NCBI RefSeq assembly: GCF_964355755.1
Contig: NC_092671.1
Coordinates: 35,357,304 to 35,421,303, forward strand
From: Antedon mediterranea
Lineage: Eukaryota > Echinodermata > Crinoidea > Comatulida > Antedonidae
Length of the DNA stretch: 64,000 nucleotides
Reading direction: 5' to 3'
The notes beneath the pieces were generated by a model. The model saw nothing but the letters and a program-made list of their open reading frames with translations, had not been told where the DNA came from and searched no databases. The position numbers and the translations under genes are program-made. Positions 4,837-64,000 of the stretch are shown one piece after another; positions within the stretch are counted from its first letter, which is position 1, and each line of letters begins with the position of its first letter.

Positions 4837-7800
4837 TCAAGAGTCCTTCTTTCTGCCATTTTGTAATCTTTTTTTCCGGTAAACTTCATCTGTAAATGGT
4901 CTTTCATATGTCAGTGCTATCTGGTAAGACGTCCACACTAATACAGTGAATACAAACCCTATGGGACTTGCATGCCTGTTGAGTTCAAGAAATCAAATTA
5001 GATATTTATTTCAGAGCTCAATTTAGTGCTATTTACTACTACTACTATAGCCAATTCATCCACTTTTGTTCTATTTTATTTCAACTTATTTATAGGGTGA
5101 CTCTAAATAGCATATCCTGACAATCAAGGGGCCCTCTTGATGAGTGACAGTGTGTATACTAGCACACTGTCACCCCCTACTCGTCTCGATGTACTAGGTT
5201 CTTTAAAGTGCACATGAGCCAGATGTGTACACTGCACCTACAATTTATAGTCCTTATCCGAGAAGACTCGTTCTACCACCATGGAGCGAATGAGGCTCAA
5301 ACCCTTGCCGATGTTAATATGGCAAGTTATTATGGTTCCAGTGTCTTAACTGCTTGGCCACTCACCGCTATTTGGGCTAGAGTTCCACAATCATTATCTG
5401 GATCTAGACAATATATATGTACTTTTGAAATATAACGCACTGTACATGCTAGTATGTATTGACTATAAGTTTAATTAAATGACAGGGGCTGGTCAAGCAC
5501 ATCACAAGATGACAGTTTTATACTTTTGCTTTTCCGCTACTACCCTGTTATACTTATATGTTTGTTTTTTTGCTATGTAGAAAGATTGAAAATAAATAAT
5601 AATAAATAAATAAATGGAAAAGGTACGATTCAAAGTAAGATAAATTCATCCTTAAATTTCATTGTTGTGGTTGGGCTTTTAACTATGAGTCTCAGGAGCT
5701 TATCCCTGCACCCACACAAGTTCTCTATTTTGGACGATACTACTTACCAAATGGCTAGTCCAAGCCAGTTTAACGTTGATCCCAAATACATCGGATCATG
5801 TGGAATGTTAAATGGAAATTTTGTAACTTTTTTATCCAAAAGAATTCCAAAATAATCACCTGTAAGAAAATAACCATTTATGTCATTTATGATCAATTTA
5901 ATTTATATGAAAGATGTGTTAATTCCAAGCCATATTCTATAATGAAAGATGAATCATACACCCAGTTTTGTAAAAGTCTCGCCGGTTTCTGATTGACTGT
6001 ACCTACCATAGAAACCATATATGTAGATAAAGGAACTCCTTGGTCTTGGGAGCCTATTTCCTGTTTAAGTCAATAATGTTGATCGATAACACGCATAAAG
6101 CTCTGTTTACACTATCAAACTAGTTTAACAAAAAAAGTGTGATGCGTCCAAATATGGTAGTGATATGACATCATCATGTCTATATATGGGCACATCACAT
6201 TTTTGTTACATAAAGTTTGATAGTGTAGACAGAGCTTTAGACTGCCTTTTATAACAACTTTTGTATTATTCAAGCTCTGCTTATAAAAAATGTGATCAAC
6301 TATCGGTACCTACCAAAGAATGTCCCTGTAAATCCTAAAGTCCAAAAGCTCCAAATGACTAAAGTCATTCCAACAGCTAAGAGCACCGAGGCAGCCGTCT
6401 TTGACATGGGCATGGCTTCCAAAGTCTCCCATTTAGGCTGTGATTGTAGAGTCGTTTCATACCTGTGATGATAAACAAATGACCATGAGCCTATTGTACA
6501 TGGATGTTATCAAACAAGAGATAGGTCGGTTTTAGAATTTTCATTTTGAATGCCAGTGCCTGTCTACACTATCAAACTAGTTGATTTGATGTGGTCAAAT
6601 ATGGTAGTGATATGCTCAAATATGGTAGTGATATGACATCATCATGTCCATATATGGGTACATCACATTTTGTTTGTCACATCATGGAGGTATAACCTCC
6701 ATGGTCACATGAAGTTTGATATTGTAGACAAGGCTTAAGCTGTGTTGTCTGTGACATATTTACATAGGCGTACACAAATATACTATTATATACAGTGTTC
6801 AGCAATGGGTCTTCTGATAATAAAGCAAATAGTGCAATAATTCAGCATTGACAATGTTTGTGCATCTTTTTTTAACACTGAGAACACATTGACAATGTAA
6901 AAACTTTAAAAACTTACTGGATATCTCTAAGACATACTAAAAGCAGGATAGGGAGTGCTAGTGCTACACAACCTTTGAAGGGACTACCAAACAGAGTGCT
7001 TAACTTCTTGGTATAAAACTCCCATCGTGCAATCTGAAAGACAATAAAGTCAATGTAAATTTGACATGAGGCTCATTGAAGGTGACAGACATAGTTGCAT
7101 CATTAGAAAAGCCAGAGGTTGAAATCTTGTCAAACATTTTTTTAAATTTTTATTTTTTAAAATTTTATTTTATTCAACCAACAGCGATGAAACCGCCACT
7201 AACCGGTTGAATCTAAACATAATAAATGTAAAATGTATTCAAATAAACAGCACAAACATAAACAAAGATCACAGCATTAAAGAAATTTAACAATTTTACC
7301 CTTAAATACAATCATAAAATAAATCAATATCCAAACAAGTAACAAGTAACCTATTAAATGTGTTAGGTAACCGCTGAAAAATACCAAATTGAACTCGGTT
7401 TTTATACTGCACGGTACATCCCGCGTTATCATCAGTATTATTCAGGAGACAGTCTACTGTAAAACAAACAAAAATCTCTATTTTCCCGCAAAATGTTTAA
7501 CACTACAGACAATGCCTATGCAGAGGAGGACACTCCTATACAGAGGAGGACACCCACATTCAGAGGAGGACACCCACATTCAGAGGAGGACACCCACATT
7601 CAGAGGAGGACACTCCTATCCAGAAGAGGACACCCCATTCAGAGGACACACCTCATTAAGGCAACATTTTGTTGGGTACTAAAATGGTGTCCTATTAATA
7701 GGGGTTCTACTGTACTTAAAGACCACTAGTAAAACCAATGTTGTCAGAATAATATCAGGTATTAGTATTAGTAGAAAAACAATGCAATGCAAATTCAATA

Positions 7801-10800
7801 GTTAAAGTCATAGACTGACATTGGACATATTCTATGACTGTCAAACATTATAATAACTTTTCTATGTATCTTCAGACGGATTTTACTTTCGTTCTTGAAA
7901 CATTTGCTTGAGCGTGGCCCGACAGATATTGCTCTAGATACTTAATATAAATCTATGTAAATTTAATTATATAAAATGTCTGAGAAGAAATACACATTTG
8001 TAATTTGAAATTAATTTTGGATTAGAGAGACGATACATTTGGGAAGTGTATATGGGGAGTTTTTAATTGAGGATAACATCTATTCAAGGTTAGTTTAACT
8101 TTAGTCGGACATAACTTCTCATGCCATTCAAAACAGAGATCAAGGAAATTCTTGCAAAAATTGTTCATTTGTTGGGTAATTGTCAGATACCGGAGGGCAA
8201 ATGCAAGAACGTGTGCACATCATTTATTTTGTCTTTTAAGCATATTTTTTTTTATGCAAAACCGTATAAATAAATTGTATAAAATAATTTTGAATATTGC
8301 AGATTTCGAAACAAAGGGAATATAAAAGGCTGTAGCTTAAAGGTACGGTAAAGGTCCTATGTTCAATTCTGAACATAGGGTATTAGAAGCTCATTTTACT
8401 TAAGTTTTGGCATTATGTGGTAGGGTGTGGCCTGTTCCTTTCCACGCCGCTTTATTCTCCCTAGTATTTTCAACCAGGTACTCATTTACTGGAAGTGCTT
8501 GGAATTGAACCCAGGTCTCTCTGTATGACCGTCAAGTGTTCTAACTAATCGACTACACAACGCCAAATACAAATATTCCAAAAATGTCTTCTCAATGGCT
8601 ATGTACATCATCATAGAGATTTTTATAACTGCTAATGCTCGATTCTGACTTCGCAAAGTAACAACGTAAGGCACGATAACAGATGGTAATTGGATGATCC
8701 ATCATGTCATGATTGGTCATACTTGTGGTGTATCAACATCCTTGCGTTGCATCCAAGTGGGAACCTTAATATAGTGCACTCTCTAATGTGTGTAGTTGAC
8801 TACTTGCATTCACTGTTAACATAGTCTGTCTTGTATGTATATAGACAAATCAAATGTTTGATTCAACATTGCTAAATCATGTACATATATTTGCACTGTT
8901 TAATAGCCCCCTAATACTAGGTCTAGTTTACCTATCCGATGGGACATGCTGACAAACACACTATTAATGTTAACATTGCCTGTCTATTGCAATTGCAGAC
9001 GAATCAGATACTTAATCCAACATTGCTACATACAGTACTAGCAATGTTTATCAGTGCCCTTGTCTAGTTTATCTATCCGATGGGATTCTAACATGCAGTT
9101 TCAACTCACAGTAATAAGTATGAATGTTAACATCACTTGTCTTGTCACTGGCTGGTTAAAAAGACATCGTATGAAATATTTATTTATAAAGCATGAATTT
9201 GTACCGTTCCTAGACGAATCCTGTCTAGATACGTATCTCCAGGGAACTTAACAGTCAGAATACTAGCATTTGCCATGTAGCTGACAATTTTTTATGGGTT
9301 GTTAATAAAATGTTTACACACAGTATAATCCAATGATGATATTGAGGAAAATGCGACTTGTACTAATTTTAATAATAACGCTCATGGTGTAAAGCTTTGT
9401 CTACACTATAAAACTACAGTAGGATGTGGTAGTGATATGACATCATCATGTCCATATATGGGCATATCACATTGATAGTGTAACAGCCTCCATTATCCTG
9501 AGCTCTGATTCTGTAATGCTTGACATTAACACCTCCACCCAACCACACATTAGATAGCAAAATCATATGCCTTAGGAAATTACCTTGGGAAATCCAAAAC
9601 TTTCTGAACCTAGGTCAACCCATGTCTACACCAGTGAGTTTGACATATAACTATTTGTCTATGTACTTGTATTCAGGAAGAGAGCCATTATTTTTTTACC
9701 ACGGACAAATGATAGCATAATATTTATAGTATGTCAACTATGATATAAAAAAGTAGTTCATAATTTAATTTTAGCTGTCAAAGTGAGGAGCATGCACCCA
9801 CCCTAGCGCTACCCCTGGATGCACCCTAGCGCTACCCCTGGATGCACCCTAGCGCTACCCCTTGATGCACCCTAGCTTGATGCACCCTAGCGCTACCCCT
9901 GGATGCACCCTAGCGCTACCCCTGGATTCACCCTAGCGCTATCCCTGGATGCACCCTAGCGCTACCCCTGGATGCACCCTAGCGCTATCCCTGGATGCAC
10001 CCTAGCGCTACCCCTGGATGCACCCTAGCGCTACCCCTGGATTCACCCTAGCGCTACCCCTGGATGCACCCTAGCGCTACCCCTGGATGCACCCTAGCGC
10101 TATCCCTGGATGCACCCTAGCGCTACCCCTGGGATGCACCCTAGCGCTACCCCTGGATGCACCCTAGCGCTACCCCTGGATGCACCCTAGCGCTATCCCT
10201 GGATGCACCCTAGCGCCATCCCTGGATCCACCCTAGCGCTATCCCTGGATGCACCCTAGCGCTACCCTTGGATTCACCCTAGCGCTACCCCTGGATGCAC
10301 CCTAGCGCTATCCCTGGATGCACCCTAGCGCCATCCCTGGATCCACCCTAGCGCTATCCCTGGATGCACCCTAGCGCTACCCTTGGATTCACCCTAGCGC
10401 TATCCCTGGATCCACCCTAGCGCTACCCCTGGATGCACCCTAGCGCTACCCCTGGATGCACCCTAGCGCTATCCCTGGATGCACCCTAGCGCCATCCCTG
10501 GATCCACCCTAGCGCTATCCCTGGATGCACCCTAGCGCTACCCTTGGATTCACCCTAGCGCTACCCCTGGATGCACCATAGCGCTACCCCTGGATGCACC
10601 CTAGCGCTACCCCTGTATGCACCCTAGCGCTATCCCTGGATGCACCCTAGCGCCATCCCTGGATCCACCCTAGCGCTATCCCTGGATGCACCCTAGCGCT
10701 ACCTTTGGATTCACCCTAGCGCTACCTCTGGATCCACCCTAGCGCTACCCCTGGATGCACCCTAGCGCTACCCCTGGATGCACCCTAGCGCTATCCATGG

Positions 10801-13800
10801 ATGCACCCTAGCGCCATCCCTGGATCCACCCTAGCGCTATCCCTGGATGCACCCTAGCGCTACCCTTGGATTCACCCTAGCGCTACCCCTGGATGCACCC
10901 TAGCGCTATCCCTGGATGCACCCTAGCGCCATCCCTGGATCCACCCTAGCGCTATCCCTGGATGCACCCTAGCGCTACCCTTGGATTAACCCTAGCGCTA
11001 TCCCTGGATCCACCCCTGGTATGTGTTTCAGAGCAAACATAATTTCTATGTATCACACTAAAGTTGAATGATGGAAAGACAGAGTTTATTATCGTCGGGT
11101 CTAAATGTAACATCTCCAAAATCAACATCACACATATCAGAATCGGAAACTCTAACATCGCTCCATCATCGGTGGTCCGGAATCTGGGAATCATGCTGGA
11201 TAGTAATCTCACTATGGAAGCACAAATAACAACTGTATCCAAAGCAGCATGCATATCGATTAGGAACCTTGGTCGTATTCGCGGTAATCTTAACAAGAAA
11301 ACAGCTGAATTGATTGTACACTCATTTGTCACTTCTAAAATTGACATTGGTAATGCCTTGTTGTTTGGCATACCAAAATCTCAAATACAACGTTTGCAGC
11401 GCTTGCAAAATATGGCAGCTAGAATTGTAACTTATACAAAATCAAACGCTCACATAACTCCTGTCCTGATGGATTTGCATTGGTTGCCTGTTCAACAACG
11501 TATTAAGTACAAACTTGCGTTGTTTGTATTCAAGATCCTAAATGACAGTGCTCCTGCTTATTTATCTGACCTTGTGGATCGTTACGAATCATCCTGCAGA
11601 GGCCTACGATCATTGTCACAAAACCTTCTTCAAGAGCGTAGAGCGAAAAATCAGTGGGGTCAGAGATCTTTTTACGTTGCGGCCGCAAGTGTATGGAACA
11701 GCTTACCAGCAACAGTTAAATGCTCAACTAGTCTAAACAGTTTCAAGACCAACCTAAAGACGTCGCTATTCGCTGATGTTCTCGCACGTTGTTAATGCAC
11801 AAAGCGCCATGAGCGCCACATGGGTGGAGGATACCGGCGCTATATAAGTTTTCATTTATTATTATATTATTCAATGATACTTTGAAGTTTGAATTGAAAA
11901 GAGTCATTTGCTCCACCTTGTGTAAATAATGGAAGTAACATCTTATGACACAATTATAAATAGTCAGACACTCGGGAAAGTCCAGACACTTGCGTGACAA
12001 AATCATGTGAACTTCAGATGATGATTCTGGCTTTGTTTTATTTATCACAAAACGGAACAATGTGAACTGAAAGATAAAGCTGAACGACTAAGTGCTAAGT
12101 GCACATTGTAATCCCAATTTCACAAGCAAATCTTTAAATTAAAATAATTCAATTTTTGTAAAATGGTTAAATTAATGATTTAAATTTTAAAGATGAAAAC
12201 ATAATTTTTTTGTTGAATATGCCATTTTAATGTCACATAATAGTTATTTACTTTAAAAAAATTTTTTTATCGAAAACAAATTTATTTACCTGAAAAACTG
12301 TAATTTAAAGCAAAACATAGTCAAATTGGCTGCCAGGTTGGTTGAACTTTATTTTGTCATTTATTTTGTCATTTATTAAGAGAAAACATTATTTTTTTTT
12401 ACTGATGGAGACTTTATTAAAACTACAAAATAACCTATTCAAAGCCTGATTTAATTAATCTTCATTTTTCATGATTTTGGAGGATCGGGCATGAAATTAT
12501 CATACCATCTACATTCACATTTGTTCAGCAATATATAGTATAATTACATTGAATGTTACATACAATATTGCAAGCAGGGATCTACAGAGCAAAAGTTCAT
12601 GTAACCCTGAATGTTCATTGGTCATTCCAGATCACATGAACATTTAATAGCCTTAAGAGGGTTTTAAACATTAATCTATTGGCTAAAAGGAGTAACTGTA
12701 AAGCTATGTCTACACTATCAAACTAGTTTGACAAAAAAAGTGTTAAGTGCCAAAATATGGTAGTAATATGCCCAAATATGGTAGTGATATGCCCAAATAT
12801 GGTAGTGATATGACACCAATATGTCCATATATGGGCAAATCACATGTTTTTGTCACATAAAGTTTTATAGTGTAAACTGAGCTTAAGTTGTTTTTAGTTA
12901 TCACAGAGTCATTAATATTAATTGGACAAGCTTAATCAATAGAACTATTCAATTAACTGTCCATTGTTATACGAGTGGACTGTTTGACCATTCGGACATT
13001 ACAGTTTGGCTAACTTACCACTGGGTTTTTAAACTATCACACTGTTTAAAGTAGAAAGTTTCTGTCACTTCCCAAACATGAAATCTTCTATCATTCGGAA
13101 AAAGAAAAGTTCTTAATCTTATACTAGTTGCTACTTAAAGACGACCACAACAAATTGTAAAATCACATTTTCATTCTTTTGTTGGTTGTTAATATACAAG
13201 TTTATTTAATTTAGTCCTTATATGACAAATATGATGGCATTACCTCCATTAGAGATTTTCTACTGTTTCAGTAGGGCAGTGTTTGGACGTTGGATTACTG
13301 ATCGTGATTCGAATCCAACTCTCGCCGCATTGCTTGTATTCTTAGGCAAGATACTTTACTTACTTACTCTCTCCACCCAGGTGTATAAATGGGTACCTAG
13401 TTAGATCAAGACACAACTTTGTGCTGATTACTGGCTGCATTATGGGAGTATGTTTCCTTACATGTTGCAAAAAAAAATTATCGGGGTAATAATATGCAGC
13501 GCATTGAGAGCTTTCTAGTATACGCTATATAAGAATGAACTATTATTTTTAGTAGCCTTAATGGAAGTGGATTTTATAGAATGCAAAGTTGATTTTATGG
13601 ATATTTAAAAAAAAAGAAAGCAAGTTTTCAATTAATGTGGAAACACATAATTCTATAAGGATTTGTACAAAAGACATCATTTCCTTTCAGTGTATTAAGA
13701 CAATATTTAAGATTGTAATGCTCTCAATTAATTCATTACGTCTTCGGACGTCATAAAAATAATTCTTGAAAATTCTTTTTTTTCAAATATAAAGATATTA

Positions 13801-21700: not shown

Positions 21701-24700
21701 TATATAGCTAGCGTATGATGTTCGTACGTTACCGATGTTTACCAGCTAGGCCTACAAAACTAAGCCTAGCTAGGCTAGGCCTAAGACCGTCCACGAGAGG
21801 TCGATCGCCGCGAGCTACTTAGGTAGTGCATTGTTTCTCACTTTTTATCATAATTTACCATAAAACGTACATTTAAGACAAGGAATGACATGGTTTAATG
21901 TTTTTAAAGTGATATATATGTATTATTTTCCAAAAAACGTCCAAAATTGCAGGGAAGGGGTCTTTAAGTATTATATAAAGTACCTTGAGTGAATTTAAAC
22001 ATATCATATTACATATAATATTGCATTATTTAATATAATTTTATCATAAATGCCTATTATGCCAACATGAAAATAAAATATATTATATATATATTCTTTA
22101 AAAATCCATCAATTCAAATATATTGACCAAAAATAAGATGGAGCCATATTTAAAATGATTTAAAAGCATGGGAGGACCTAAGGTAAATATTACTTAGAGA
22201 AGTTGTGAATGGGTAAAAAGTTCACAAAAGGCATTCCATTGTACAGTGTAAAGAAAAGCCCCATGTCGGTTCACACTCAATTGTTTTCACAAATCCATTG
22301 TCATCAATTGTCAGCAGGGGAAACGAAAAGCTACCACCAGTAAAGACACAAGCCAATTTACAATAAGGTCCTTTTGTGTCACCTAGCCTTGTATCATTAA
22401 ACACACCCCTAAATTATTCATAGGGGTGTAAATATAAAGGCTGTGGGACACTTGTAGAGTCATTCAGTTCCTGTCCTGGTGGCAAGAAGGTTCTAACTCC
22501 ACAGTTGAGTTTTTTTGGTAGGAATTCTGAGAGGTGAATATCAGAGCTGAAGTTTTAACAGTGCATAGAGTAAGTACTTAGTGTTGTCTCAATTTACTTA
22601 GACTGTGTTTTTATGCTTGTACATCTTGTCAGATGTACTGTACCTTAAGTATGTATGTTGTATGTAATCTATATTGTAGTTGTTTGTACCACTCTCCAGT
22701 ATTTCTTAAGGACACTAACTAATGTATACATTGATGAATGTTTGATTACAAAACTTTAGAACATTAATTGCATGTTGTTTTAGGGTCTTTCACAGACCAT
22801 ATTTAAAGGGTTCAGTACCTCTATATAAAATTAATAGTAATTCTAAAATAGGACATCTTAATACACACTAAGCATTAAATATACTAAATTAATTCAGATT
22901 CGGCTAGACTTGATTAAAGGTACAACTATCTAATTTTTCTTAAAAATTACTAAGTAGTTATACATTGATTGAAGTTTAAATACAAAACTTTAGAACAGTA
23001 TATTGTCTGTTGTCTTTAGGGTCTTCCTCACACCATCTTTAAAAGGTACGGTACCTCCATATAAAATTGTTTTCTTAAAGTAGGATAGTTATATATTTCA
23101 TTTTATTACATGCTAAGCATTGAATATATTAAATTAATTCAGATTCGGCTAGACTTGATTAAAAGTACAAATTAAATTTGTCTACCATTTCATTACATAT
23201 AGCGAAAACACACTTAGACAAATTCAAACACATAAAACATCTATTTTAATTCTCAAATCATTTCTGTGTTGTCAAACATTAGGGAATAGATGATATTGAT
23301 AAAACCATTCTACATAATTAATATTAATTCTCTGCTTGGCTTATATTACTCTATCTAAAAGGTAAATTTAGCACGGCTGAACTTGATCCAGCCAGACAGA
23401 GCAGGAAAGAACTCTCAAAAGTCCACTAGACGAAAAAAAAAACAAAACTCGCAATTTAGAAATAGCCCAAGATTTCATCCTAACAAGTCATTTCCGAGTA
23501 CATTTTTATTTAAGTCTAGGTGACACGTTACTTTTTTTTTAACCAGACTAAAAAAATTGCAATATAAGTCTAGCTTTTTTCTTTAAAAAAATAATAATCT
23601 TACTCATATTTTGATTCAAGTTTGAGTCATTCTTTTGCAAAGTTTTTGGTAGTTATGAAAAAGTGATATGAATTGTAATGATTGGTTAGACATCTGGAAC
23701 GCAAAGGTAGTCTCAGTTGATTTAAATTGACTAAGGAACATCCTCTTTGCCCAACCCATCCACTATTATAGGAATCATCTAATTATAACACATCTCAGAC
23801 TTAACAATTATTTTATCACCTGATGACTGACAGTGACATGTACTTAATAGTTGGTTAAAACATTTATTAAATTCGTTAGGAAGTCTCAGTTCGCAAACAC
23901 CGTTTCAAAGAATTGCCAACCTGCTCCTATTCTCTAGAGGTCTCAACTTCCCGAATCATCACTGGTCATTTTGCGTATGTAGCATGTAATCCCGGGGGAA
24001 CAACACTTAATAATGTATGAATAAAAAAAACAAAAAGGACAAGATTGTCTAAGATAGTAGAGTGAATCACTGCACAGTAAGGACAGACAGATTTTAACCG
24101 CATTTAATTTGTCTTTTTTCCCTTTGACTCGCCCTCTAAACCCCGGGAGGAAACTTTGGATATTGCGCTTAATATCTGTTTTCTTATAGTTAAAGTGTTG
24201 AATTAAGCACTTGTGGCTATAAGAGCGGGTGACTTTAGACCACGGGACAAGACAATATAAATAGGCTACTACCGGGTGTCAAATGACAGAGGGGACGAAC
24301 TTTGATAGCAAAGACACGACTGAGCGTATACTGCTTGTAATATCTGGAGGATTAGAGACAATATGAATTTTCTACTAAGTATATTTGGGTAAGTTAGTTG
24401 TATACACTGGCTGGCTTTGTGTTGGGTCTGTGTACGTATGTGGGATACTTGGTATATGGTGTGTACACTTTAGTTTTTAGTACTGTTTGTTCTATTGTAT
24501 TGCATTAGAGGCACACAAGCAATGGTGGATGTGGCTAAGATATAGGCTATACAGTAGGTAAGTTGTACACTTTTGTAGCTTCCTAAGGTGTATGAGCTAC
24601 AAATATTAAGATATAAGTACTTAATTAATTATTTATTGTACCTTTAACCTATGCCCTTATAACACATTATGTGTATATATGATGTATCATGTATTATGTG

Positions 24701-27700
24701 TGTTAGACTTAGCCCCTCTAACATCTATCTATACAAAACCATATAGATAGTAGTAGTTAATTAATTATATGTATATTTATTTATTGTACCTTTAACTTAT
24801 GTCCACTATGTGTATATATGATGTATTATATGTGTTTAACCTTTAACCCCTATAATATCCATCTATAACAAACCATATGTAAGATTATATGTGATGACTT
24901 AATCAATAAACTTGATTTTATACAGGATATAGATTAAACACTAACTAGTGACTGTGGATTTAAAGAACTACGAAATGTAATTTTTCCGGTGATTCTTGGT
25001 TTTTGTAGAACAGCTCATGTAAAATCTATACCATGAGTTGTCCCACAAAGAACAAAAATCATTTAACAACAAATACTTGAGCAGTGGACAATACCTAAGG
25101 TGGAAATAACTTTTTCAGTTAGTGACTATATGGATTTAAAGAAATACTTATGTAATTTTTCCGGTGATTATTGGTTTTTGTAGAACAGCTCATGTAAAAC
25201 ACATAACGATGAGTTGTCCCACAAAGAACAAAAATCATTCCTTCGGAATAAAACGGATTTAACAACAAACCGGATACTCGAGCAATGGACAATAACTGAG
25301 ATGGCTTCAACTTTTTAATATTAATAATGATTTTTGGTTTTTGTAGAACAGCTCATGTAAAATCCATAACCATGAGTTGTCCCACAAAGAACAAAAATCA
25401 TTCCTTCAGAAATTGGATCAAGAACAACAAGACTATGCTTGCATTTAAACAGTGGATACTTAACCAAGATGACCTCAACATTTTAACAATGATTTTTGGT
25501 TTTTGTAGAACAGCTCATGTAAAATCCATGTCATGAGTTGTCCCACAAAGAACAAAAATCAATTGTTCAAGACAACATGATTCTGCTTTTCAAGACACAA
25601 TTGATATCAAGATTTATTCAAACAAGATGGCATTAATATTTTAACAATGATTTTTGGTTTTTGTAGAACAGCTCATGTAAAATCCATGTCATGAGTTGTC
25701 CCACAAAGAACAAAAATCATTTCTGCAGAAAATGGATCAAGAACAAACAACAAGACTATGCTTGCATTTAAAATGGATTTAAAAACCAACAAGCTACTCG
25801 AGCAATGGACAATACTACCAATATACTGTAACACCAACTTGTTAACAATGATTTCTGGTTTTTGTAGAACAGCTCATGTAAAAAAAATAACGATGAGTTG
25901 TCCCACAAAGAACAAAAATCATTCATTTGGTATAAAAATGGATTTAAAAACCAACAAGCTACTCGAGCAATGGATAATAACCAACATAGCATTAACTTTT
26001 TAAAAATGATTTCTGGTTTTTGTAGAACAGCTCATGTAAAATCCATACCATGAGTTGTCCCACACAGAACAAAAATCATTCCTTCAGAGAAGAAGATGGA
26101 ACTATTTTCAAAGACACTGGCAGTTAAATATTTACCAAGATTTATTCAACAAAGGTGGAATTAACTTTTTAACAATGCTTTCTGGTTTTTGTAGAACAGC
26201 TTATGTAAAATCCATGTCATGAGTTGTCCGACAAAGAACAAAAATCATTGTGAATTCATCAAGATTTTTGAAGAAGAAATGTAAAAGAATTATTGGTAAA
26301 GTGATATTCTCTCAAATGCAAAAACTAAAAGATTAAAATAATAACACTTGGTACAGTACTAATGAAAGCATATTATTCAATACTACTATTTAAAGATGTA
26401 TTTGTCCTCCAAAAACATGAAAAATAAAGAATTAAAAAAATCAGATTTTAAATAGGCCAATTTGCAGTTTTAATAATGTTATTCACTTCTGTAGACCAAA
26501 AATATAACAAAAATAATTATCTCACTTATAAAAAGAAAAAAGAAAACCAATGTCTGACAGACAATTTAGGTATTTTTTGCTTTAAATTAGTTATTTTCAG
26601 GAAAATATTTTTTGAATAACTATTATGTGTCATTAAAATAATGTTTGTAGGGGAACAAAATATCTTATATATCTATAAATCATAAAAGCAATAAATAAAA
26701 TGTTTTGTGTAATCTCTTTTATACATTAATGAGAAAACAATTCTTAAATATCCTTTAGTTAAACAAGTTTTAGTTCAACGAACAATTTCTATGACAACTC
26801 ACAACAATAACCTTTCTTCTTGGTATGCATAACAAGACATGTGTATTTCAATGCTAAATTCTTAAAACCCCGCCAAGTTTTACCATCCAATGGTGACCTC
26901 AACACACAGGCATTGAGCACTGTGAATCATCACACCCTATTGTTGAAAGGTTACACAATGGGAACATGTTTGCCTCCTAGGTTTTAGTCTGCACAATAGA
27001 CTTATAAAATAAAACCATTATAAAGGAATTGTTTGGATTAAGATATTGAATGCAAAAAAACTTGTTGCACAATCCAGCTATAATGAGCATCATTTATCAT
27101 CACCTAGGTAACTGTACATTATTATGATTACATCATAGGGTTTGTTTCTGCTGCATTGCGCCGAATAAACCGTTTTTGTTTCTAAATAGATTTAAAATGT
27201 AATTTTTATAGTGACTGCATTTCGACTAAATTTTTACTCCAAAATAACCATTTAAATGAGTGGGTGGTCGTTGACAGAAATCGTTAGCATTACCCGAAAT
27301 GCAATTGGTCCTGGCGGTTAATTCAAACGTTACTGCAGTGTAGGTGACTCGAGGTCAATCAAATAACAGTTATTTTGTGTTGTAGCTAAAAATTGCCCAG
27401 TAATAACTGATTAAATGGTTGTTCTAACTTCTAACAACAAACTGAATGTTATTTTTGCGCTGCCATTGAGTACCAGTTACCGGTACTCAAAAATTGTCCT
27501 GTTTCTGCTCCTAAGAAATTGGGGTTAATTTATTCAAACCGTTTTTTTTTATCCAGCAGAAACAGGACAATAGATAAAGTTCCAGCTGAGCTCTTACAAA
27601 ACGAAGGTTAAAAACTCATTATTCCCAAAGACAAATGTTTAGGTTGTTTACTTGGACACTACTCAAAGGTTGACCAAGCTAGCTAACTGTGCGTTTATTA

Positions 27701-30700
27701 ACTTAAGTTCAACTATTGAGGGCAGCAAACAGAAATTTATATAATTATGTACAGTCAACTATATTTTGGAATAGATAGGATGAGTGTACAGTAAAAGAAT
27801 GAAATATTGTACTAAAATATATCAGCTGTCAATTGAATGTTCTTTAGCTACTTTTTGATGTTAAATACTTTTACTTTAAAACATTGCAGAACTCACGGTG
27901 GTCAATTAGACAATCACTGGCAGCCAATGTTCATGTATACACTGAGCAAATTATTTCACAATCTTTAAATCTTTGTCTACACTATCAACTTTATGTGACC
28001 AAAAAATGTGATGTGCCCATATATGGGCATGATTATGTCATATCAGTACCATATTTGGGCATATCACTACCATATTTGGGCACATCACACTTTTTTTTGT
28101 TAAACTAGTCTGATAGTGTGGCTTAGTGTGTGACGCTGGATTAAAGATTGTGATGTCGTGGTTCGAATCAAACTCTCCCGCACATGCTTGTATTCTTATT
28201 AGGCAAGACACTTTACTTACATTTGCCTCTCTCCACCCAGGTGTATTAAATGGGTATCCAGTTAGATCAAGACACAACTTTGCACTGATTACTAGCTGTC
28301 TTATGGGAGTATGTTTCCGTAAGTGTTTGATCCAAAAAATGATCGGGGTAATAATGCTTTTAAATAAATGTGGTATTATTATGTGGTATTATTAGTTATC
28401 CGCTTAGTAGCGGATAACTCCTTGTAACTGTATGAAATCATCTTTTTTTTTTTTTTCTGTATTATTCTTTCTTTCTGTCAATTTTGTGTCTCGCGTATCT
28501 CAAAAACTTAAACAAAACATTTTATAACTTTGTCAACATGTGGGCATTCACGTGAAATTGTGCACCTCCTATTGTGAATGACGTCAGAATTGCGCAACGT
28601 GATTTACGCGCGTTTTAACGAATTTCGCGTATTTAACATAGATCGAAAACCATATAGCAATTTAAATTGAAACTTAACAAAAGTTTAATTTATATCTTGC
28701 GCTAACTGACTGTGGAAAAAAATGGCATGTTTCACACGAAGTTACGCGCGCACGGGCGTTTAAAATTTCAAAATGCGAAAAATCAATTTCTAATCAACTT
28801 TCTACGCGTTTCATGTCATTTTGAGCATGTCAAAAATTCCTACGCGCGCGCATATTTTTACTCGCACGGTGCGCACGTGGCATTGAAAATAAATTTTTTT
28901 CGCGTGATTCATGTTTTTCCAGCCTTTTCTAGTAATTTTACCAACTTTTGAACAATTTTGACCTAAAATTACGTCGTACGGGCACATCCAATTGGATAAT
29001 TTACGTGCGTTTTTGATGAAAAAGTTCAAAAATTTAATTCGTCAAAATTATGCCTTTTTTTAAACATTCATAGATTTTAAACTACGAGGTGAACTTTTTT
29101 TAAATTATATATTTTGGAAGTTGATGAGTTGTAGATATGGAATCATGCATTAATATGGGTAATCGGACATTATAACGTCATCGTATGGCCACGCGAATAT
29201 AAAATATAGGATTTTTATATCTTTCGTCATAGCGCATCACATTTAATAGAGCGCATCTCCACTTATCCGTTTTTTATTTTCACCCCGATTTTGATATTGT
29301 CTAGGTGAATGAACTATCTTTCGCATGAGTTAAAAATATTTTAATTTTTATGACGTCATCATGTCTAAAAATGTAAATAACGTGGGTCAACTATTTTCAT
29401 CTTTACAGTAACTTTCAATCTGTTATAGCTCGTCAGAATAAAATGTGATAATCATGATTAAAACGTTTTCTGGAAGCTATTGAATTGTAGATACGAATTC
29501 ATGTAAACATTTTGCCAATCGGATGTTGTGACGTCATCATATGGCCAGTTGAATAAAAAAAAGGCGTATTTTCATATTTTGCGTAATAGTTCATCACATT
29601 TAAAAGGGCGCGCATCTATATTTTACGTATTCAAATTTCTTCTACACGTTAATATGTGGTTGCTGAGATAATTTCCTTCCAAAATTACTACTGTACCTTC
29701 GCGTTTCCTTTTGAAAATTAAAATAAAATACGGGTCCCGTAATTTCACCTATTTTACACTGTTTGTGACATGTATACAGATTATACTGTGTATACTATAT
29801 GACAGAAAATATACAGCATTCAGCACTAACAACATATCATATTCTTCAGTTCAGGTCATAATGACATAATCTTTTTCGGTGTGCAATATTCCAACGTATG
29901 ACGTGCACGTGGCGTTTGTCGTGCGGATAACTAACTCGTCAAAGTGACGAGTTTCATGTCTAGTTATTATAGTGTGTTTACTGAGCTTTAGAAACAAATC
30001 AATTGACTTACCACGTTCCAGAAGACAGGAGTTAAAAAGATACATATGATAGTAACGTAAATATTGACATCTTTAAGGTCAATGAACTGTGATGTTCCCA
30101 TCAGGAATGAAACATCAACCTAATAATATATAAAAATGTACACAAAATATGAAAAACAATACAAATTTGACAAAAATATCATATTTTTCGTGGCTAATAG
30201 TAGTACCAGACCAATTGTAATCATGTTAAAGGGCCAACTGAGACAAGTTAATATTAGGTTGGTCCTCATTTTGTTGTTGAATTTAAACGTAAAACCTCCT
30301 TGCCTGTAGGGCACCTTTATTGAATGAGGTGTAAAATGAACATGGGGCAATAAATGTTGCAGTTCAGTTTCATTTCACACAACATTACATTATATATACA
30401 TTTATACTTATAAATAAATAATAAAACATTGTGTATGGAGATTACAATAAGCCATAATGGCTTTCTGAACTTCCAGATAAAACAAACAACAAATATGGTG
30501 ATATATAGGTATTTATTCATAAAAAGTACAAACAGGTGCATTGCAAAATCTACTTAATGAGTCCAGATAACCAAAAGAAACAATAAAAAAAATCAACATT
30601 TATATCTTTTACGATTTATTTACAAAGTGTGTTTACTAGAAATGTTTGCAATTTGCCAGACTTTGCCAGAAAACTCAATACGTAAATTTTGAGATGCACC

Positions 30701-57287: not shown

Positions 57288-57833
57288 CTCTGTCTACATT
57301 ATCAAAGTGTGATGTGTCCAAAATTCCTTATTCATCTTTTGAAAGTTAGTCTCTAACATATGGTAGACTAGTCAAGTTATAAACCAAAATAAGTCTGAAA
57401 TGGCGGCCATTTTGTTTTTCACATTTTAAGGGTGAAGATCTAAAAATTGAGCCGGGTAAACAGCAGATTTGAATTCAGCACCCCAAAATTACCCTAAAAC
57501 ACGTGTTTTTTTCGCTTTTAACACGAAATGCCTACAGCATCTTATTAAAGTGGAAATATGACTATCTGGACTAGTCTATGGCTGAAACTTCTGGTAGTGA
57601 TTTTCCAGTGTTCTTGCAGGTTTGACTTATACCCCTTTCACACCAAAAGCAAAACTCTGGAGATCAATCCAAAGTTTTAGTGTGAAACTAAGGGCTATTA
57701 AATTGGTTCACTGACTTTGACATATGCTAGTGTATGCTTAAATATGGTAATGATGTGACATCATCATGTCCATATATGGACACATCACATTTTTTTGTCA
57801 CATAAAGTTTGATAGTGTAGACCGAATTTAACA
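57288..57833. mobile_element. MITE M1, copy 15, split by an insertion
   Basis: The left end (AAGCTCTGTCTACATTATCAAAGTGTGATGTG, 57291-57322) and right half (57722-57833) of one M1 element are separated by about 390 bp. The inserted DNA has GACTAGTC-type edges (ATGGTAGACTAGTCAAG and GGACTAGTCTATGG). It contains GGCGGCCATTTTG and no ORF. Confidence 0.65.
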
Positions 57834-57871
57834 AGTGAAACCTATATGTTTTCTCATTGGGAGCTTGGCAA

Positions 57872-57950
57872 TTAAGCTCTGTCTACACTATCAAACTTTA
57901 TGTGACAAAAAAATGTGATTTGCCCATATATGGACATGATGATGTTATAT
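57872..57950. mobile_element. MITE M1, copy 16 (half)
   Basis: The left TIR and core only; the right half is gone. Confidence 0.75.
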
Positions 57951-57960
57951 ACTCTCACTA

Positions 57961-63322: not shown

Positions 63323-63994
63323 AGATACTATGGATATCTTGTGTGTAAACAGATACTATGGATATCTTGTGTGTAAACAGATACTATGGATATCTTGTGT
63401 GTAAACAGATACTATGGATATCTTGTGTGTAAACAGATACTATGGATATCTTGTGTGTAAACAGATACTATGGATATCTTGTGTGTAAACAGATACTATG
63501 GATATCTTGTGTGTAAACAGATACTATGGATATCTTGTGTGTAAACAGATACTATGGATATCTTGTGTGTAAACAGATACTATGGATATCTTGTGTGTAA
63601 ACAGATACTATGGATATCTTGTGTGTAAACAGATACTATGGATATCTTGTGTGTAAACAGATACTATGGATATCTTGTGTGTAAACAGATACTATGGATA
63701 TCTTGTGTGTAAACAGATACTATGGATATCTTGTGTGTAAACAGATACTATGGATATCTTGTGTGTAAACAGATACTATGGATATCTTGTGTGTAAACAG
63801 ATACTATGGATATCTTGTGTGTAAACAGATACTATGGATATCTTGTGTGTAAACAGATACTATGGATATCTTGTGTGTAAACAGATACTATGGATATCTT
63901 GTGTGTAAACAGATACTATGGATATCTTGTGTGTAAACAGATACTATGGATATCTTGTGTGTAAACAGATACTATGGATATCTTGTGTGTAAAC
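63323..63994. repeat. 28-bp satellite, 24 near-identical copies
   Basis: The unit AGATACTATGGATATCTTGT + GTGTAAAC repeats from 63323 to 63994 in unbroken 28-bp register (24 units); I saw no variant unit. The last six bases of the window (ACTGAA) leave the repeat, so the array appears to end there. Such uniformity implies recent expansion or ongoing homogenisation. 28 is not a multiple of 3, so it is not a coding repeat. Confidence 0.97.
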
Positions 63995-64000
63995 ACTGAA

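Follow-up and report, generated by a model that had tools for sequence, protein, structure and literature searches.

A tandem array of eight mir-2009 hairpins within a PEMT intron of the crinoid Antedon mediterranea

Introduction

Eight tandem hairpins are located at positions 24986-26251 on the forward strand of the window (the whole stretch of 64,000 nucleotides of Antedon mediterranea DNA that was analysed), within a 22,978-bp intron of the PEMT gene and on the strand opposite to PEMT. These hairpins are tandem copies of the miR-2009 gene, which has been described before in sea urchins and sea stars and is not known outside echinoderms. Taken as a whole, the array is very probably a tandem amplification of mir-2009, in which one forward-strand primary transcript would carry eight precursors, the 3p arm would be loaded and the dosage of the microRNA would be raised. 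miR-2009 itself is known; its eight-fold amplification may be new. Related to this, few papers name miR-2009, and the passages on it in PMC4669494 and PMC3247247 make no mention of tandem copies, those of PMC3247247 having no wording on copies, tandem arrangement or duplication.

Organisation and folding of the array

The unit anchors lie at 25004, 25179, 25342, 25504, 25662, 25863, 26021 and 26190, with 158-201 bp from one unit to the next and a length of about 1.27 kb for the whole array; an earlier note on this DNA had counted eight units at the same spacing, and the anchor positions agree with it. The copies, all of them on the forward strand, are given here with the position of the 3p sequence, the score against the Rfam family RF03590 (mir-2009) and the z-score of the fold: copy 1 at 24986-25065 (3p 25034-25055; 67.1 bits; z -5.2), copy 2 at 25165-25241 (3p 25210-25231; 53.1 bits; z -4.4), copy 3 at 25324-25404 (3p 25373-25394; 72.4 bits; z -7.7), copy 4 at 25486-25566 (3p 25534-25555; 71.4 bits; z -7.1), copy 5 at 25644-25723 (3p 25692-25713; 70.4 bits; z -7.0), copy 6 at 25845-25925 (3p 25894-25915; 63.9 bits; z -5.9), copy 7 at 26003-26082 (3p 26051-26072; 65.8 bits; z -4.7) and copy 8 at 26172-26251 (3p 26220-26241; 71.8 bits; z -3.6).

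The earlier note had proposed folding with randomised controls, and in such an analysis all eight forward-strand hairpins beat 200 of 200 shuffles, none of which equalled the native minimum free energy (MFE) in any copy (-21.3 to -29.9 kcal/mol; z -3.6 to -7.7). In the best forward-strand copies (3 and 5), 29 pairs and three single mismatches make up the stem and the loop has 12-13 nt, and two stem pairs are U-G or G-U in 8/8 copies; these folds match the stem, the loop of about 12 nt, the three mismatches and the two G-U pairs that had been described before. The copies have the stable fold and the roughly 22-nt duplex of an animal microRNA gene. Given the published 3p start and a 22-nt duplex, about 10 pairs of the predicted structure would lie below the inferred Drosha cut, which is the expectation of the usual Drosha measuring rule. 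The CNNC motif at +16 to +18 is found in only two of the eight copies.

Identity of the hairpins as mir-2009

All the hairpins match RF03590 on the forward strand with 53.1-72.4 bits (E 7e-11 to 1e-16), and in every copy the alignment is full-length and in the sense direction (model positions 1-83 of 83). The eight scores are under the gathering score of 90, which is a curator's threshold and not a biological feature; the Rfam scan of the window at gathering scores gave no match, and mir-2009 emerged only when an E-value threshold was used. The Rfam cut-offs look strict for Antedon mediterranea, because mir-2010 (54.9 bits, cut-off 66) and mir-2007 (32.4 bits, cut-off 100) also score below threshold in the same genome. 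In that genome a search restricted to exact matches places miR-2010 at a single site, miR-2007 matches one place with one mismatch, and no exact copy of miR-2012 was found. The presence of miR-2010 and miR-2007 is consistent with an echinoderm genome.

A bit score by itself is not proof of membership of mir-2009, since AT-rich inverted repeats also reach sub-threshold scores on microRNA models: one of them matches Rfam MIR4371 at 57763-57938 of the window with 57.2 bits (GA 110), and a second MIR4371 match (L015:37-218) has 56.0 bits. In view of the similar match at L015, the inverted repeat of the window, which extends over 57751-57955, probably represents a dispersed palindrome rather than a microRNA.

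As the Rfam scores are below gathering, the assignment to mir-2009 rests mainly on the mature sequence. The sea urchin spu-miR-2009 is UGAGUUGUCCCACAAAGAACACA as printed in a table of PMC4669494, and its first 21 nt are found exactly in the 3p arm of copies 1-6 and with one change each in copies 7 (A to C) and 8 (C to G), both outside the seed GAGUUGU, which is unchanged in the eight copies. Position 22 differs from the published sequence (A for C; 1/23 places), and 2/23 places of the 5p arm depart from the Rfam consensus; copy 8 has one further change in the 5p arm. The earlier note had read the array as a microRNA with seeds that it did not recognise: the microRNA identity is well supported, but the sequence is that of the published miR-2009, and the candidate 3' product proposed at that time begins 1 nt ahead of the published 5' end. 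A microRNA of unknown family is thus ruled out by the matches to RF03590 and by the published spu-miR-2009 sequence.

Conservation among the copies

Between copies, pairwise identity averages 98.9% in the 5p arm (1/23 columns variable) and 97.8% in the 3p arm (2/23 columns variable), 75.5% and 78.6% in the lower stems including their edges (5' and 3' side, respectively), and 46% and 32% in the 20-nt flanks. The seven spacers have a mean gapped identity of 56%, as compared with 51% in shuffles (highest single shuffle, 63%) and 89% in the hairpins, and the two closest spacer pairs reach 69% and 72%. It had been claimed that the arms are almost invariant while the spacers have diverged, and this holds, with arms 98-99% identical and spacers near the shuffled background. 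The gradient from the arms to the loop and the spacers fits selection on both arms, and the copies are mostly old duplicates, some of them perhaps more recent. As regards covariation, no stem pair of 29 is altered on both sides and 21 are invariant. When columns were shuffled, 95.7% of positions were paired in real and shuffled alignments alike, and the structure is inseparable from chance by this control; when the partner was slid, pairing fell to 41-51%, the reference structure being itself taken from one copy of the array.

These data bear on the possibility that activity is limited to one or a few copies, the rest being decaying duplicates, in which case copy number would say little on dosage. 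Such decay is compatible with the assignment to the mir-2009 family and competes only with the dosage part of the interpretation. It would agree with the state of copy 8, which is altered in both arms and has the weakest forward-strand fold, and of copies 2 and 6, which lack the pair nearest the loop. Nevertheless, the 3p arm is identical in copies 1-6 despite spacers that have diverged nearly to background, and therefore at least six copies seem to be kept; we consider decay of most copies improbable.

Position in the PEMT intron and choice of strand

The first coding exon of PEMT was placed at 30012-30101 on the reverse strand by an ungapped scan with the human N-terminus, in which this position scored 49 and the next place 22; the 24-residue core of the exon scored 49 as against at most 35 in five shuffles, and the GT of the intron begins at 30011. 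Human PEMT also matches four reverse-strand stretches across 4864-7033 with 37-55% identity, namely the second coding exon at 6918-7033 (human residues 32-68, 54% identity) and the remaining exon matches at 6297-6494, 5741-5899 and 4864-4977. The splice ends AACGTG/GTAAGT and TTTCAG/ATTGCACGA give an in-frame WNV-IARW where the human protein has WNVVARW. Since the exons at 30101-30012 and 7033-6918 join in frame, with GT...AG intron ends, the array lies in a PEMT intron and on the opposite strand, where the earlier note had put it. Besides, the window contains a MYCBPAP gene on the forward strand at about 44.0-44.9 kb (two of nine scanned proteins over the cut-off, and a third, weak one matching at 41.8 kb).

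Folds of the reverse strand have z-scores from -2.2 to -7.8 and are as stable as those of the forward strand in most copies (mean MFE about -27.8 on the reverse and about -25.5 on the forward strand); shuffles equalling the native value were obtained in copy 2 (1/200) and copy 8 (7/200). The strands are thus about equally stable, copy 8 excepted, and the strand is undecidable from folding energy alone. With folds of this stability, and with a PEMT intron that spans the array, the reverse-strand hairpins in the PEMT pre-mRNA could also be processed into antisense microRNAs. This is very unlikely in our opinion, as the mature miR-2009 published in PMC4669494 is the forward-strand sequence and RF03590 scores are lower on the reverse strand in 8/8 copies (29.5-47.1 bits).

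Distribution in the genome

The genome searched was a 354-Mb assembly of 18 contigs, in which runs of N and withheld stretches may hide copies. The mature 3p pattern, with N at its two variable positions, has eight matches in this genome, all on the forward strand within the array, and its reversed control has none. All of the 15 matches listed by a DNA search with the array are inside it, and an RF03590 search (56 of 70,743 candidates scored) produced 16 matches, all in the array, at eight places on both strands. When up to three mismatches were allowed, the mature pattern gave 24 matches, eight in the array and 16 outside (seven in the reversed control). The only outside match at two mismatches is on contig C7, with one mismatch inside the seed; it was the only one of the 16 to be folded, and no microRNA-like hairpin was found there in three folded stretches. 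Dispersal of the hairpins as a transposon had been named earlier as the finding that would speak against a microRNA, and no copies were found outside the array in the assembly searched. The tandem, palindromic and intronic nature of the array, in a window rich in other tandem repeats, might suggest a satellite, or an inverted repeat of transposon origin, without any function as a microRNA. This reading is hardly credible, given that the pattern and DNA searches (and, with less weight, the RF03590 search) found no copy elsewhere, that the C7 match has no such hairpin and that identity to the published miR-2009 (PMC4669494) contradicts it.

Other features of the window and of the genome

A 28-bp tandem repeat occupies 63323-63995 (24 copies, 100% match) and ends within 5 bases of the end of the window. 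Within 9799-11792 there is a minisatellite with units of 23 bp, the main part of which runs to 11015 and comprises about 49 copies; it adjoins a 243-codon ORF (11064-11795) that has the appearance of a retroelement remnant and has no Pfam match. At 6100-6245 and 6560-6735 there is a short element of MITE-like look, whose ends are inverted and whose interior has a ATATGGTAGTGATATG motif, and 21-bp tandem units related to it are found at 6587, 12748, 19533, 28039 and 43869. Elsewhere in the genome there is one neurophysin-type exon (L012; G000:C4:25455598-25455816), sought as part of a vasopressin/oxytocin precursor; the peptide exon of such a gene was not found by a pattern search of about 20 kb upstream. 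A search for COX1 yielded no match.

Proposed mechanism and dosage

The mechanism that we infer for the mir-2009 array, from transcription to targets and dosage, would start with a forward-strand primary transcript, antisense to PEMT within its 23-kb intron, carrying the eight hairpins. Each hairpin would be cut by Drosha/DGCR8 and then by Dicer, the 3p strand (UGAGUUGUCCCACAAAGAAC...) would be loaded into Argonaute, and the loaded miR-2009 3p would repress those mRNAs in which its seed GAGUUGU has sites. The predicted 3p product, of 21-23 nt, begins at UGAGUUGU. Eight near-identical precursors would raise the dosage of miR-2009, an effect that is plausible, and selection would keep both arms while the lower stems, loops and spacers drift.

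A possible, weak TATA box of the primary transcript, TATAAATAGG, is located at 24256-24265 on the forward strand and is the single match of this motif in the window; at least one match appears in 43 of 100 shuffles, and the motif is not counted as promoter evidence because it is too common by chance. For TATAWAAG, the frequency in the window is no higher than in shuffled sequence, and the region immediately upstream of the array lacks a match. Seed-match sites (ACAACTCA) occur in the window at four places outside the array, none of them within the PEMT coding exons. In a table on sea cucumber coelomocytes, the three values given for miR-2009 are all 0.0000 (PMC4669494).

Comparison with known systems

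For the sea urchin, miRBase lists one mir-2009 locus. With respect to mir-2009 and spu-miR-2009, the precursor is full-length in 8/8 hairpins of the crinoid and the mature 3p is identical over its first 21 nt in 6/8, whereas eight tandem copies are present here. A known embryonic microRNA of echinoderms is now located in an array of several copies that preserve both arms, and its copy number and dosage become comparable across this phylum. If the amplification is lineage-specific, it would allow a natural test of the reasons for which certain animals multiply a single embryonic microRNA.

The sequences of miR-430 and miR-2009 are not known to be related. In their organisation, the array and the miR-430 genes of fishes are alike, both being multiple tandem copies of one microRNA family at one locus (PMC10417697). 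However, the fish clusters of that study exceed 6 kb and the mir-2009 array has about 1.27 kb, and zebrafish miR-430 is described as consisting of variant triplets with repeated promoters (PMC10417697), whereas the mir-2009 array contains nearly one variant and no repeated promoter was evident in it. It is a tentative and rather doubtful idea that the mir-2009 of this lineage is a dosage cluster like miR-430, which would supply a burst in the early embryo, perhaps for mRNA clearance, and would have evolved independently of fishes. According to the same source, there is a hypothesis that fishes need the high copy number of miR-430 to clear maternal mRNAs, and miR-309 of flies clears maternal mRNAs with no tandem organisation (PMC10417697).
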